This document shows, piece after piece, positions 135-14,195 of a DNA stretch of 14,494 nucleotides (the first letter of the stretch is position 1; every line of letters begins with the position of its first letter). The notes beneath the pieces are model-generated. The model saw only the letters and a list, made by a program, of their open reading frames with translations. It did no database searches and had not been told where the DNA came from. Source of the DNA: a bacterium. Its GTDB lineage: Bacteria; UBP14; UBA6098; 4484-93. Position numbers and translations under genes: made by a program. The stretch covers positions 1 to 14,494 of the forward strand of contig JAGGUN010000053.1 of the NCBI GenBank assembly GCA_021158465.1, given 5' to 3'.

Positions 135-2231
135 TCAAATTAAGCCCTTTAGTTTCAGCATAAACTCTTTTTCTATTTCAGGGGGGATTTGCTGGTATTT
201 GTCGAAAAACAGAGTAAAGACTCCCCTTCCTTGAGTAAGAGAACGAAGAGCTGTTGAGTAGCCGAACATTTCGGAAAGCGGTGTTTTTGCCGTTATCTTC
301 TGTCCGTCTGGAGTCTTCTCGAGGGATGTTATTTCGCCGCGCCGCTGATTGATGTCTGTTATGACATTTCCCATATACTCTTCTGGAACAATCACCTCGA
401 GGTTCATAATCGGTTCGAGGATGATAGGTTTTGCTGATGCGCATGCCTTCTGGAACGCCTCCGAGAAAGCGTACTCGATTGCTCCCAGGTGGATATTTGT
501 TTCGTCGAACTCGAGCTCCTTTAGTGTGATTTTTATGTCTATCATCTCGTATCCTGCTATTGGACCGCTTTTGGTTACCTCTTTTGCGAGCGTCTCAAGG
601 CTGCGGACAACCTCCCTCGGCAGGGTTCTGTTTTTGGGGAGTTTTATCTTGAATGCGAAGTGCTTGCTTGGATCGCCGATTGGTGATACCGCCACCTGTG
701 CCGTTGCAGATACCATTTTCGTCCCGATGAGCTTGCTGAACTCGCCTGTTCCCTCTGCTTCCTGAGTAATCGATTCCCTGTATGTCACCATTGGCTTGCC
801 TACGTTCACATTCAAATTGAATTCCCGCTTGAGCCTATCAATAATGACCTCAAGGTGGAGTTCGCCCATGCCCTTGACAATCCTCTGTCCTGTTTCCTCA
901 TTGATGGAGAAATCGAGGGTTGGGTCCTCTTCGACGAGGTGTTCGAGAGCTATCTGTAGCTTTTGCTCGTCGGTGCTGTTCTTTGGCTCGACAGCGATGG
1001 AGATAACAGGCTCGGGGAATGTCATGCCCTCAAATACCACCGGGTTGGAGCTGTCGCAGAGTGTATCTCCTGTTGCGACATTCCGAGGTCCGGCGATGGC
1101 AACAATATCTCCTGCCTTTGCGAGCTCCTTTTCCTGTCGACGATTGGAGTGCATCTCAAATATCTTGGCGACCCTTTCCCTCTTCCCTGTCCTTGGATTG
1201 AGGTAGCTTCTCCCTGTTTTCATCACACCGGAGTAAACCCTTGTGTAGAGTAACCGCTCAACATACGGATCGTATGCGATCTTGAAAACGATCGCGGACA
1301 TAGGTTCGTGCACTGAGTATTTTCTCTCTACAGGTTTACCTGTTTTCGGGTGGGAACCCACGATTGAGCCGATATCGAGTGGGGATGGGAGGTAATCCAC
1401 GACTCCATCTATGAGCTGTTGAACTCCTCTGTTTTTCAGAGCAGAGCCAACAAAAACGGGGACAAATGACTGATGGATAGTAGCATTTCTTATCGTCCGC
1501 TTAATCTCTGACTCTGAGACCTCCTCGTTCTCTATGATCTTTTCAAAGAGCGTGTCATCGTATTCGGCAACCGCTTCTAAAAGCTCATCTTTATACCTTT
1601 TTACTTCTTCTATGATGTCATCTGGGACATCCTCCTCTGTGTAGGTAGCTCCCAGGTCCTCGGGGTTATGATATATGCTTTTTTCTCTTATGATGTCAAT
1701 TATACCTCGAAAGCTTGCCCCTGAGCCGATAGGGATCTGAACTGCGTATGCCTTTGCGCCGAGTTTTGTTCGGATGCTTTCGATGGCGTGCTTGAAGTCA
1801 GCCCCGGCTCTATCCATCTTGTTGATGTAAGCGATCCGGGGTATCTTGTATCGGTTAGCCTGCCTCCAGACCGTTTCTGACTGTGGTTGAACCCCTGCAA
1901 CACCGCAGAATATAGCAATGATACTATCGAGCACCCTAAGGCTCCGTTCCACCTCCATTGTGAAGTCCACATGTCCTGGCGTATCGATGAGATTGATCCG
2001 ATGATTTTTCCAGAAGAAGGTTGTAGCGGCTGATGTGATGGTGATGCCACGTTCCTTCTCCTGTTCCATCCAGTCCATCGTTGCGGTTCCCTCATCGACC
2101 TCACCGAGCTTGTGTGACTTGCCAGAGTAGAACAGTATCCGCTCGGTAGTGGTCGTTTTCCCGGCGTCGATGTGGGCAACGATCCCGATGTTGCGAATCC
2201 GCTGTTGCTCAGAGTCATCTTCCCTACTCAT
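135..2231 (-). CDS. fusA: Elongation factor G (translocation GTPase), divergent domain IV
   Basis: EF-G drives tRNA-mRNA translocation and helps recycle ribosomes. The protein has 698 residues, normal length. G motifs are all present: AHIDAGKT 19-26, RGIT 61-64, DTPGH 83-87, NKMD 137-140, SALK 263-266. Domain III has GMGELHLE near 454-461, and domain V has the expected [20 protein letters not shown]. Domain IV is unusual. Where most EF-Gs have QSGGRGQYG at the first tip loop, this one has LIGTKMVSA (501-509). Where they have YHDVDSS at the second, it has FDETNIH (575-581), with Asp576 in place of the tip histidine. Both alignments are gap-free, so a frameshift is unlikely. The ATG lies 18 nt after rpsG with no recognisable Shine-Dalgarno. 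Position in the str operon says fusA; the loops suggest a divergent EF-G subfamily (spdEFG-like or EFG II-like). Confidence 0.94.
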
Positions 2232-2249: not shown

Positions 2250-2720
2250 TTACCATTTAAAGTGAGCAAAGGCTCGGTTTGCCTCTGCCATCCTGTGTGT
2301 GTCTTCCTTTTTCTTAAAAGATGCTCCTTCCTTACGGCTTGCTGCTATTAACTCGGATGCAAGCTTCTCCGCCATAGAATGTTCGCTCCTGTTTCTGGCG
2401 GCGGTCAGTATCCATCTTATGCTCAGGGCTATCTGTCTCCTTGGATTAACCTCTGTCGGCACCTGGTAGTTGGCTCCACCGATCCTCCTCGAACGCACCT
2501 CCAGTGTTGGCTTCACATTGTTCACGGCAGTTTCAAGCAGCTCCAACGGATCTTTCTTCGTTCTTTCCTTTACTATATCAAGTGCAGAATAGAGTATCCT
2601 CTCGGCGAGGCTTTTTTTGCCCCGTTTCATTATGTTGTTGATGAATTTTGTGACCAGTACGCTCTTGTATTTAGGGTCAGGTGGTAACACCCTTTTTTCG
2701 GGTCTTCTTCTTCTTGGCAT
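2250..2720 (-). CDS. rpsG: 30S ribosomal protein S7
   Basis: S7 nucleates assembly of the 30S head by binding the 3' major domain of 16S rRNA, and lines the E site. The 156-residue length is typical. It starts [20 protein letters not shown] and contains the family signature around residues 20-35 ([17 protein letters not shown]). The conserved [17 protein letters not shown] follows at about 75-91. It ends [12 protein letters not shown], as many bacterial S7 proteins do. The ATG follows rpsL by 12 nt with a GGAG site 6 nt upstream, so it is cotranscribed with rpsL and probably translationally coupled. In E. coli S7 is the autogenous repressor of the str operon through the rpsL-rpsG intercistronic region. 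That region is about 100 nt in E. coli but only 12 nt here, so the same mechanism is not visible. Confidence 0.98.
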
Positions 2721-2732
2721 ATCTTACTCCGA

Positions 2733-3104
2733 TCATTTTGGTTTCTTTGCTCCGTATTTGGACCGTGCCTTTTTTCTTTCCTCAACCCCCTCCGTATCGA
2801 GAGCGCCACGGATAATATGGTATCTGACCCCTGGGAGGTCTTTGACCCTTCCACCTCTAACAAGGACAATAGAGTGTTCCTGGAGGTTGTGTCCGATGCC
2901 TGGTATATATGCTGTTACCTCCTGCCCGTTTGTCAGGCGGACACGTGCTATCTTCCGAAGGGCGGAGTTTGGCTTCTTTGGTGTCATTGTATAGACTCTG
3001 GTGCATACTCCCCGTCTCTGAGGGTTTTTCTGGAGCGCCGGCGATTTTGATTTCCTCTTCAGTTTCTTCCTGCCGTGCCTCAGCAACTGATTGATAGTTG
3101 GCAA
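2733..3104 (-). CDS. rpsL: 30S ribosomal protein S12 (TTG start)
   Basis: S12 sits at the decoding centre and monitors codon-anticodon pairing. I place the start at a TTG, giving a 123-residue protein beginning [10 protein letters not shown]. This matches the canonical S12 N-terminus, and an AAAGGAGG site lies 5 nt upstream. With this numbering Lys43 and Lys88 (TPKKPNS 41-47, GGRVKDLPG 84-92) fall exactly at the positions where streptomycin-resistance changes are known. Both are wild-type lysines. Asp89, the site of methylthiolation in many bacteria, is present. An in-frame ATG six codons upstream (3122) would add MAKEGN. Its purine-rich GGAAGG directly abuts the ATG, leaving no spacing, so I consider it unlikely. 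This is the first gene after the str promoter at 3147-3174. Confidence 0.95.
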
Positions 3105-3109
3105 ATTCC

Positions 3110-3117
3110 CCTCCTTT
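3110..3117 (-). promoter_or_regulatory. Shine-Dalgarno deciding the rpsL TTG start
   Basis: The minus strand reads AAAGGAGG, then a 5-nt spacer GGAAT, then TTG. This strong site is correctly spaced for the TTG at 3104-3102. It would lie inside the coding region if the upstream ATG at 3122 were used. Confidence 0.8.
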
Positions 3118-3146
3118 GCCATCCTTCCAAGAATTCACAAATCGCT

Positions 3147-3238: not shown

Positions 3239-3270
3239 GGGAATAGTGGTTATTTGAAACCGCTATTCCC
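3239..3270 (-). other. Stem-loop spanning the rpoC stop codon, without U-tract
   Basis: The minus strand reads GGGAATAGCGGTT, a 6-nt loop TCAAAT, then AACCACTATTCCC. This is a 13-position stem with one C-A mismatch. The 5' arm encodes the last beta' residues, and the stop codon spans the loop and 3' arm. No run of T follows (CAATTCTGTCCC), so it is not a standard intrinsic terminator. It may mark an RNA 3' end, a processing site or a barrier to exonucleases between the rpoC and str transcripts. Confidence 0.6.
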
Positions 3271-6200
3271 TATCTGTCTTATGTTGAACGGGATCGCTTG
3301 TTGTTCCGTTTCCTCGGCGAACTCGTACTCTTCTTCCTGTTCTTTCACTACAACGGGTTTTACCTTTCGGTTCTTTCTGGCGCCTGTTCCGGCAGGGATT
3401 AGATTCCCCAGGATAACATTTTCCTTCAGTCCTCTCAGGTAGTCGACTGTTCCACGGATTGAAGCGGCTGTGAGGACCCTTGTTGTTTCCTGGAAGGATG
3501 CAGCGGATATGAACCCTTCTGTTGAGAGGGCGGATTTGGCGATGCCCAGTAGTATCGGTTCCCATTTTGCTGGGACCTTCCCTTCGTTTTTGACTCGTTC
3601 GTTTTCCTTCATCAGTTCTGTTCTGCTGACCTGTTCATTCTCCATGAATTTCGTATCGCCGGGGTCGACGATAACCACCTTTCTGAGCATCTGCCGTATA
3701 ACTATCTCGATGTGCTTATCGTTGATCTTCACACCCTGGAGCCTGTAGACCTGTTGGATTTCGTTGAGGAGGTATTCTGCCACCGCATTTGCCCCCTTGA
3801 CTCGGAGGATATCTTGTGGGACGATCGGTCCGGCGCAGAGCTTCTGTCCGGCTGTCACTTTCTCTCCGTTTCTGACAAGGATGTGCTTTCCTCTTGGGAT
3901 GAGGTATTCTCTCTTTTCGCCCTGGTCTCCATGTACGATAATCTTTTGCCCGACCTTTTTCTGGGTTTTCTCCTCGACGAATTCGACCGTTCCGTTCACC
4001 TCGGAGATGATAGCTGGGTTTTTAGGGTGTCTTGCCTCGAACAGTTCCGCCACTCTCGGTAGTCCACCAGTTATATCCCTTGTTTTGGAGATCTCCCTTG
4101 TCATCTTCGCCAGTGCAGTTCCAGCCTTTATTTTCTTGCCATCTGGGATGAGGATATGTGCACCAACAGGCATAAGGTATGTATCGAGGATCTTTTCGTT
4201 GTCATCCAGTATTACGATTCTCGGGTTGAGGTGTCGCTCCTTGGTCTCGGTGACAATGATCTGCTTCTTCATTGTCAGCTCGTCCACCTGCTCCTTGACC
4301 GTCTTATTCTTGAAGATGTCTATGTACTTGGCTTTTCCGCTGAATTCGGAGATTATCTGGCTTGCGTACGGTTCCCAGCTATAGATCTTCTGGTCTGCCT
4401 CCACAAACTGACCGTCTTTAACAAAGAGGAGAGAGCCGTATGGAACATTGTAGTTATGCTCGATACCGGCTTTGTCTGTTATAACTATGCGTCCGTTTCG
4501 GCTGAGGACGACGAGGGCGTTCTTGACGAAGGGCGAGGGGAGTGTGCGGATCCTGACATATTTTACTGTTCCGGATTGCTTGGCGTTGATGTCAGACCTC
4601 TGTGCCACCAGGCTTGCGGTTCCACCGATATGGAAGGTTCTGAGCGTTAGCTGAGTACCCGGCTCACCGATACTTTCCCCTGCGATGATGCCGACAGCCT
4701 CACCTATGGTGACATTTTCTCCTGTGGCTGGGTCCTGTCCGTAGCATTTGGCGCAGACGCCGTATGGAGATTCACAGGTAAGCACGGAGCGTATCTTAAC
4801 CTTTTCGATACCAGCCTCTTCTATCTTGTCGCAGTGCTCGGCTGTTATCATATGGTCTGCCTCGACGATCACCTCTCCCGTTACCGGGTTGACTATGTTC
4901 TCAAGCGCATATCTCCCGAGGATTCGCTCACGGAGTGGCTCGATTACCTTCTCGCCGTCTTTGAGTGCAGAGCGCTCCACGCCGATGATGGTTCCACAGT
5001 CTTCCTCCTGCACGATCACATCCTGGACGACATCTACCAATCTCCTTGTGAGGTATCCAGCTTCTGATGTCTTCAGTGCGGTGTCCGCTAATCCTTTTCG
5101 CCCTCCGTGGGAGGAAATGAAGTACTCGAGTACCGTCAACCCCTCTTTGAAGTTGGATTTGATTGGTGTTTCGATAATTTCTCGTCCTGTCAGTTTCTTC
5201 TGGGGTTTGGTCATAAGTCCGCGCATACCGCCGAGCTGTCGTATCTGGTCTCCTTTGCCTCGTGCTCCCGAAGAGATCATAAGCCACAGCGGGTTGAACC
5301 CTTGCTCGTGCTGGGAAAGCTCCTTGAAGAGTTCCTCTGCCACCTCACCCTGTGTTCTTGTCCAGACATCGATTATAGTGTTGTAGCGTTCGCCATCGGT
5401 GATGAGGTTCTTGCGACGTTTCTCGTTTATGCTTTCCACCTCTTTCTCTGCGGCGTCCAGTATCTTCTGCTTGTTCTTCGGGATGATCACATCGTCTATT
5501 CCTATAGACAGCCCTGACTGTGTGGCGTATTCGAACCCCATCTCTTTCATAGCGTCGAGGAATTCGACGGTAGTAAATCGCCCGCACTTCTGGTATGCTT
5601 CTGCTACCAGCTGTTTCAATATCTTGCCGCTCAGCTCTTTGTTAACGAAATCGAGTTCGTCAGGGACGATCTGGTTGAATATGACCCTTCCTGTGGTGGT
5701 TTCGATAATCCGCCCATCGACACGGACCCTTATTTTCTCGTGCAGTGTGATCTTTCTATGGTTGTAGGCGATTACAACCTCCTCTGGAGAGGAAAAGGTT
5801 CTGATCTTTCGCTGCTTGTGTGGTAGCTCCTTTGTTAGGTATGTGAGTCCGAGTACCATATCCTGTGACGGGACTGCTACCGGTTCTCCGCTCGCAGGAA
5901 GGAGGATGTTGTTTGTGGATAGCATAATAAGAATTGATTCCAGTTGAGCCTCGTATGAGAGGGGGACATGGACAGCCATCAGGTCACCGTCGAAATCGGC
6001 GTTGAAAGCAGCGCAAACGAGTGGATGGAGCTGGATAGCCTTCCCTTCGATGAGCTTTGGGTAGAACGCCTGTATTCCAAGCCTGTGTAGGGTTGGAGCT
6101 CTGTTTAATAGGACTGGATGGTCTTTGATAACCTCTTCCAGCAGGTCCCAGACCTCGGGCGGGTGTTCTTCGACTATCTTCTTTGCTCTCTTTATACTCT

Positions 6201-7368
6201 GGGTAATGCCTCGTTCCTCGAGTTTGTGCAGTACAAACGGCTTGAACAGCTCGAGAGCCATGGTCTTTGGCAGTCCGCACTCGTGCATTTTTAGCTCTGG
6301 ACCAACGACGATAACAGCCCTCCCTGAGTAGTCCACCCTTTTTCCGAGCAGGTTCTGGCGGAAGCGTCCCTTCTTGCCCTTGAGAAAATCGGATAGTGAC
6401 TTTAGCGGTTGTGTTCTCGATGTTGAGAATGCACGGTGTCGGATGGGAGCTTCGATGAGTGCGTCCACAGCCTCCTGCAGCATCCTTTTCTCGTTGCGAA
6501 TAATTACCTCTGGCGAACTTATCTCTATGAGTTTCTTTAGTCTGTTGTTCCTGTTGATCAGTTTCCGATAGAGTTCGTTTAGGTCGGATGTTGCGAATCT
6601 GCCACCGTCCAGAGCGACTAACGGTCTGAGGTCGGGTGGTAGGACGGGGATGACCTCGAGTATCATCCATTCTGGCTTGTTATTCGATTCCCGGAACGCC
6701 TCAACCACCTTCAGGCGTTTGAGGAGGGTTTTCTTTTTCTGCTCGGATGAGGTTGTTTTCAAGGTGCTGCGGATGTTTTCTGCCATCTCGTCGAGGTCGA
6801 GTTCCTGCAGTAGCACCTTTAGGGCGCTTGCACCCGTCATCGCCTTAAACTCGAGCCCCTTTGCTTTGAGCTCTCGGTATTCCTCCTCCGTCAAAAGCTG
6901 TTTTTTCCTCAGGTGTGTTTTCGATGTATCCCCTGGGTCGATCACAATGTAGCTCTCATAATATACGATGGATTCGAGGTCGTTCACGGAGAGCTCCAGC
7001 AGGGTTCCGATCCTCGATGGGGGGGATCTGAGGAACCAGATATGGGCAACAGGAACGGCGAGTTCGATGTGTCCCATTCTTTCCCTGCGGACCCTGGAGT
7101 ATGTTACCTCCACGCCACAGCGGTCACAGACTACACCCTTGAACCTTATCCCTTTATATTTTCCGCAGGCGCACTCAAAATCCTTCTGGGGACCGAATAT
7201 CCTCTCGCAGAAAAGTCCATCCTTTTCTGGTCTGAAGGAGCGGTAATTTATGGTTTCAGGTGATGTAACCTCTCCGTAGCTCCAGGAGCGGATTACATCT
7301 GGGGAAGCGAGCTGGATTTGGATAGCGTTAAAGTCGAGCTGTTCACGCTTCTCCTTTTTACTTGCCAT
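3250..7368 (-). CDS. rpoC: DNA-directed RNA polymerase subunit beta'
   Basis: Beta' provides the catalytic Mg centre, bridge helix, trigger loop and clamp of RNA polymerase. The protein has 1372 residues. The N-terminal zinc site is Cys66, Cys68, Cys81, Cys84 (ECACGK...CDRC). The catalytic motif NADFDGD spans 456-462, with Asp458, 460 and 462 binding Mg. The bridge helix lies at about 752-785 ([20 protein letters not shown]). The second zinc site is Cys791, Cys865, Cys872, Cys875. The trigger-loop base [10 protein letters not shown] (907-916) is separated from [10 protein letters not shown] (1097-1106) by about 180 residues. This is an SI3-like lineage-specific insertion absent from Gram-positive enzymes. 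The ATG has AAGGAG 8 nt upstream, overlapping the rpoB stop (TAAGGAG), which favours translational coupling. No disrupted motif was seen. A stem-loop covers the stop codon. Confidence 0.99.
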
Positions 7369-14100: not shown

Positions 14101-14122
14101 ATCCCTTTTCCTTTCCGAACAG

Positions 14123-14195
14123 CAGGCCCGGAGGGACTCGAACCCCCAACCACCGGTTTTGGAGACCGATGCTCTACCAGTTGAGCCACGGGCCT
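14123..14195 (-). tRNA. trnW: tRNA-Trp, anticodon CCA
   Basis: A 73-nt cloverleaf folds fully. The acceptor stem AGGCCCG pairs with CGGGCCT, and the discriminator is G73. The D stem is GCTC/GAGC with loop AACTGGTA. The anticodon stem TCGGT/ACCGG closes loop CTCCAAA (anticodon CCA). The variable loop is TGGTT, and the T stem GGGGG/CCCTC closes loop TTCGAGT. A1-U72 and G73 are standard tRNA-Trp features. The 3' CCA is not encoded (the next bases are CTG). Its first base is inside the TAG stop codon of rpmG, a 2-nt overlap. Location between tuf/rpmG and secE is common in bacteria. Confidence 0.97.

Follow-up and report, generated by a model that had tools for sequence, protein, structure and literature searches.

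Which protein moves tRNA and mRNA through the ribosome when the elongation factor G (EF-G) of the str operon has lost the tip of its domain IV, and what is left for the altered protein to do? The question is raised by the window, the whole stretch of 14,494 nucleotides analysed here, which is contig C50 of a 54-contig, 2.04 Mb genome (G000, 97.6% complete). Its minus strand carries secE, nusG, rplK-rplA-rplJ-rplL, rpoB, rpoC, rpsL, rpsG and the EF-G gene fusA (Table 1), the genes other than EF-G, rpsL, rpsG and rpoC being named from their translations. A tRNA-Trp (cca) gene lies upstream of secE at window positions 14122–14195, an ordinary arrangement. In a relative from the same genus (G001), tuf follows fusA; the contig of the window ends before that point.

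Table 1. Features of the str-operon EF-G and its neighbours, in window positions.
Feature	Position	Strand	Basis
fusA, EF-G of 698 aa with tip-less domain IV and all G motifs	135..2231	-	NCBIfam TIGR00484 (EF-G), 881 bits vs cut-off 659
Domain IV (residues 480–603), fastest-diverging domain of the protein	423..794	-	PF03764, identity, dN/dS
Tip loop 2 (residues 575–581), FDETNIH replacing YH(D/E)VDSS	489..509	-	alignment
Tip loop 1 (residues 501–509), LIGTKMVSA replacing Q(S/T)GGRGQYG	705..731	-	alignment
Switch II DTPGH (residues 83–87), catalytic histidine retained	1971..1985	-	alignment
Switch I RGITI (residues 61–65) retained, no KDG insertion	2037..2051	-	alignment
rpsG (S7), upstream of fusA	2250..2720	-	order shared with G001 (same genus) and family f2
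rpsL (S12)	2733..3122	-	neighbour order
rpoC, first of rpoC-rpsL-rpsG-fusA	3250..7368	-	neighbour order

Loss of the domain IV tip in the str-operon EF-G

The replacement of both tip loops, first described in a sequence-only reading of the window, is reproduced exactly by alignment with canonical EF-G, which needs no gaps and sets D576 opposite the E. coli tip histidine H583. Nine tip positions were scored (Q501, G503, G504, G506, Q507, H576, V578, D579 and S580, in the residue numbering of the window protein, on which the EF-G domain limits are approximate). The str-operon EF-G retains one of the nine, whereas each of the 33 canonical EFG I proteins compared, to which it is ~47–51% identical, retains eight or nine. 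All of its G motifs, including both switch motifs, are present, as had been claimed. The losses exceed chance and are concentrated in domain IV: among positions that at least 90% of canonical EF-Gs share, domain IV has lost 21 of 38 across the class (17 kept) and the remaining domains together 28 of 207 (179 kept; Fisher p = 1e-7). The domain IV model PF03764 scores 52.6 bits in this protein versus 163 in the other EF-G of the genome, and mean within-class identity of the str copy is 41% in domain IV versus 60–62% in the other domains; for comparison, domain IV identity in canonical EFG I is 61%. The AlphaFold model, built with 13 class sequences, has a mean pLDDT of 70.6 (domain IV mostly ~79–94, domain II poor), keeps the beta hairpin bearing loop 1, shows the expected fold and finds its best PDB matches among bacterial EF-Gs; it is used here for its overall fold only.

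The loss of the tip is confirmed as real, in a gene that is intact and under purifying selection. The EF-G of G001, an independent genome, is 91% identical to the window protein and has matching loops, and comparison of the two genes gives a whole-gene dN/dS of 0.073; sequencing error is thereby ruled out, and the full-length open frame bears out the earlier view that the gene is neither frameshifted nor a pseudogene. A sequencing error, pseudogene or contamination as the source of the tip-less reading has a negligible probability, the one circumstance in its favour being that the contig ends 134 bases beyond fusA, and related tip loss in four families speaks against it. The gene was recovered from 14 genomes of the class, and none has canonical loops: all 14 carry a tip-less str EF-G, each with one to four of the nine tip residues, and the loop sequences vary among the class families. 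The gene order is rpoC-rpsL-rpsG-fusA-tuf in family f1, rpoC-rpsL-rpsG-fusA in f2 and rpsG-fusA in some f3 genomes; in f4 neither rpsL nor rpsG was observed beside the tip-less EF-G.

The partner EF-G and the placement of both copies

One other EF-G gene was found in the genome, on a different contig (C11:61924-63963, 695 residues, L046). It stands by itself, flanked by an aspartyl-protease-like gene on one side and yceD-plsX-fabH-like genes on the other. Neither a domain search nor a full-length EF-G query finds a third copy in this genome, all other matches being short or partial. The C11 protein is an EFG II: the trees place it in the EFG II clade, its switch I reads RGNSI instead of RGITI, and its switch II reads DAPGF instead of DTPGH and lacks the histidine. 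Its tip (QTGGHGQYG and YHPVDSS) is canonical at nine of nine positions. The sequence-only reading had posed a choice between translocation with an altered tip and a canonical EF-G encoded elsewhere, for which a genome search and a subfamily tree were the means of decision. Both were run, and the second option stands in part: an EF-G with a canonical tip does exist, as an EFG II and not as a second EFG I, and the window copy lies outside its clade.

Constraint on domain IV is reciprocal between the two copies. In the str copy its dN/dS of 0.133 exceeds that of the four other domains, and in EFG II its value of 0.057 lies below that of every other domain, both being point estimates from one genus pair. 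In the G domain, canonical positions are kept at 97 of 111 sites in the str copy versus 48 of 111 in EFG II, the model of which has a mean pLDDT of 84.7. Slower evolution of EFG II relative to EFG I was considered as a housekeeping sign and discarded, the trend being weak and the pairs non-independent.

In trees built without domain IV, a 100/100 split places the window EF-G with EFG I and spdEFG, apart from EFG II. A 55-sequence maximum-likelihood tree of this kind unites the class copies in one clade (99/97) and places spirochaete spdEFG2 with L065, L119, L048 and L049 in a separate clade (96/93). Joining the two clades is compatible with the data (p-AU 0.217), and the backbone of a 70-sequence tree is without resolution; that careful tree did not uphold a grouping of most tip-less EF-Gs seen in a quick one. 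A single origin of all tip-less EF-Gs and repeated origins are both compatible with these results. Two assignments of the window EF-G were rejected: spdEFG1, for want of the KDG insertion in switch I, and EFG II, on account of RGITI and a position outside the EFG II clade, both EFG II features being present in the C11 copy. Domain and full-length EF-G searches found no spdEFG1 in G000.

The window copy resembles EFG I (TIGR00484) in its str-operon location, the order rpoC-rpsL-rpsG-fusA(-tuf) and its GTPase motifs, and differs from it in the lost nine-residue tip signature and the weakened constraint on domain IV. The EFs-G known as spdEFG2 occur in spirochaetes (Borrelia EF-G2), planctomycetes and deltaproteobacteria, with EF-G2mt/GFM2 as their mitochondrial counterpart. 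Like them, the window copy combines EF-G architecture and intact GTPase motifs with an altered tip loop 1 in a genome that also encodes a tip-bearing EF-G; unlike them, it sits in the str operon (the spirochaete spdEFG2 loci read, some of them short, show no rpsL or rpsG neighbours) and is partnered by EFG II instead of spdEFG1, the usual companion of spdEFG2 in genomes that lack EFG I. The earlier suspicion of an spdEFG-type protein was thus right in kind, since spdEFG2 and mtEFG2 tips are also altered, while membership of the spdEFG2 clade is neither supported nor rejected.

A probable division of labour between recycling and translocation

The class-wide loss of the tip is best read as specialisation for ribosome recycling. 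The str-operon EF-G would be a dedicated subunit-splitting GTPase acting with RRF, for which the genome has one gene; it would still have its GTPase, domain III, domain V and the domain IV fold, and its tip would no longer engage the codon–anticodon duplex in the decoding centre. Translocation of tRNA and mRNA would fall to the unlinked EFG II paralogue with its whole tip. We give this reading a probability of roughly two in three: from the sequences we infer that the str copy has lost translocation and kept recycling, and that EFG II has taken translocation over. The str copy appears to keep what splitting needs and to have lost what translocation needs, and EFG II appears to be the reverse. 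The division is suggested by the fact that nearly every genome in which a tip-less EF-G was read also has a tip-bearing one, in a set of genomes chosen for low-scoring or several EF-G copies, so that counts do not stand for frequencies.

A recycling EF-G with an altered tip is known in principle. The spdEFG2/GFM2 proteins studied so far act in ribosome recycling and have no part in translocation (PMC8203779, PMC3150367), and the str copy probably works like spdEFG2/mtEFG2, with which a shared duplication is compatible by the same AU test. A loop-1 glycine is missing from each of two recycling-only factors, Borrelia EF-G2 and human EF-G2mt, and changes in loop 1 are reported to impair elongation while hardly affecting ribosome disassembly (PMC8203779). 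S. aureus EF-G H572K, the equivalent of an H583 mutant, acts with RRF to split 100S ribosomes as well as the wild type does, in a reaction that needs GTP hydrolysis (PMC7196661). Two EF-Gs sharing labour are also known from Pseudomonas (PMC3832671), although EF-G1A and EF-G1B are both EFG I proteins, unlike the pair in G000.

The absence of the switch-II histidine from EFG II counts against a role as translocase. E. coli mutants of this histidine are impaired in GTP hydrolysis to varying degrees, and more so in Pi release (PMC4532990). Mycobacterial EF-G2 and Thermus EF-G-2 belong to the same group as the C11 copy, which likewise lacks RGITI and the histidine and has an intact domain IV; the M. 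smegmatis protein is reported to have no GTPase activity, and the T. thermophilus protein is an active GTPase that supports elongation weakly (PMC9067457). A GTPase-less paralogue, Bacteroides EF-G2, translocates without GTP hydrolysis according to a citation in PMC12775393. With Bacteroides and T. thermophilus as precedents, EFG II is a plausible translocase by analogy.

Across the class, EFG II copies have eight or nine of the nine tip residues in every case, the f3 tip being slightly altered (QTGGAGEF, HPVDSKD; 8/9). Both EF-Gs were found in 11 of 17 class genomes and one copy in six, five of which are less than 90% complete. In families f1, f3 and f4 the EF-Gs are the tip-less copy and EFG II only, and seven such genomes are at least 92% complete; a third EF-G may have been missed in one genome of 97.6% completeness, which is unlikely for seven genomes from three families. 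In family f2 a third EF-G is present that carries the histidine and a full tip (L056, L060), so the translocase there need not be EFG II, a further point against. L056, of which L060 is a close relative, clusters at 100/100 with the unlinked partners found in G082, G131 and G180. On one reading the class ancestor had all three EF-Gs and the third was lost in f1, f3 and f4; alternatively, it may have been transferred into f2.

Among the other explanations, the str-operon EF-G might still be the main translocase, with an altered tip, and EFG II have a conditional role. Its position beside rpsG and its complete G motifs with the switch-II histidine fit this view, as does the finding that H583K slows translocation and stalls it at an intermediate without abolishing it (PMC4490557): H583 mutants keep slow translocation, so a tip-less EF-G could do the same, which tells against recycling only. 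We consider it unlikely, because the loops differ between class families as expected from released constraint and not from a new conserved contact, because the tip is lost almost only where another EF-G has it, and because, in the single genus pair compared, no other domain of EFG II is as constrained as domain IV. An overlap of functions is also rather improbable, with EFG II doing most translocation and the str copy recycling and special splitting, such as the revival of hibernating 100S ribosomes, in partial redundancy. S. aureus RRF and EF-G do split 100S ribosomes independently of translocation (PMC7196661), and sequence cannot separate such an overlap from a clean split between recycling and translocation. 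A role as a Tet(M)-like GTPase for ribosome protection or rescue, the altered loops displacing a ligand of the decoding centre, is very improbable: Tet proteins do have the architecture of EF-G and tip loops conserved in another way (PMC4342817), but the general Tet protection model gives 388 bits (cut-off 775), far from the EF-G score in Table 1, and the gene is a core-operon gene across the class whose loops are not conserved.

Recurrence in other lineages

A tip-less EF-G (at most 4/9) adjoining rpsG was found in 20 further genomes from ~14 family-level groups outside the class: Candidatus Kapabacteria (L119), G040, G063, G082, G102, G119, G131, G133, G138, G146, G178, G180, G207, G211, G225, G235, G237, G246, G250 and G275. 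The expectation that divergent EF-Gs lie mostly outside the str operon therefore fails for this type. Most of the 20 genomes have an unlinked EF-G with the histidine and a full tip (spdEFG1 or similar); in G119, G133, G138, G235 and G237 an EFG II type is the only tip-bearing EF-G found. Weaker cases are G117 (tip 5/9), G150 (5/9) and G253 (2/9); in G150 and G253 the gene does not adjoin rpsG. A histidine-bearing partner is still present in relatives of G117 (G224) and G119 (G225), which suggests that this partner was lost repeatedly. Among the matches listed in a survey of 250 genomes, which took the top matches, supplemented for part of the genomes, 45 genomes have a single EF-G, and in 44 of them its domain IV scores as canonical (E <= 2.6e-39). 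The exception, G275, is 98% complete, and the sole EF-G found there (L218, G275:C296) is tip-less (2/9); its partner is probably missing through the 430-contig assembly, as the genome would otherwise speak against the proposed division of labour.

In the usual view EFG I is indispensable and EFG II an accessory of obscure role (PMC3150367, PMC4342817), always described beside another EF-G, predominantly an EFG I held indispensable (PMC3150367). These roles would be reversed where, unlike in described members, EFG II is the only tip-bearing EF-G found, as in the genome of the window, in families f1, f3 and f4 and in a few other lineages. That an EFG II without the switch-II histidine is the sole translocase in several lineages, including three class families, with the ancestral str EF-G reduced to recycling, is a tentative proposal to which we give slightly less than an even chance. 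If it is true, all protein synthesis there relies on an EF-G whose GTP hydrolysis is absent or unusual. The tip kept by the accessory copy gives EFG II a concrete, testable role, and these bacteria offer a natural setting in which to ask if translocation depends on ordinary GTP hydrolysis by EF-G. Automated family models call the tip-less gene elongation factor G, so that such a functional split goes unseen. A literature search that covered few subscription journals found no paper on recurrent tip-less EF-Gs in str operons or on EFG II as sole tip-bearer; the recurrence in many lineages, and the sole tip-bearing EFG II found in several, appear to be new.

Several further proteins were noted. 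Intermediate tips (5–7/9) occur beside rpsG in L231 (G202), L224 (G116), L222 (G224) and L272 (G117), for example RQSAGKGQFG with GSYDDKDST, and are possibly stages of tip loss. Short EF-G-like proteins of 644–659 residues, 26–32% identical to the window EF-G (L217 in G108, L223 in G190, L275 in G080), have unusual tips (IEVPPNPYWA, MPKPCWA) and are perhaps Tet-like ribosome protection proteins. The EF-G of G226 was read through one in-frame TGA (G226:C1:774276-774626), perhaps a sense codon in that genome.
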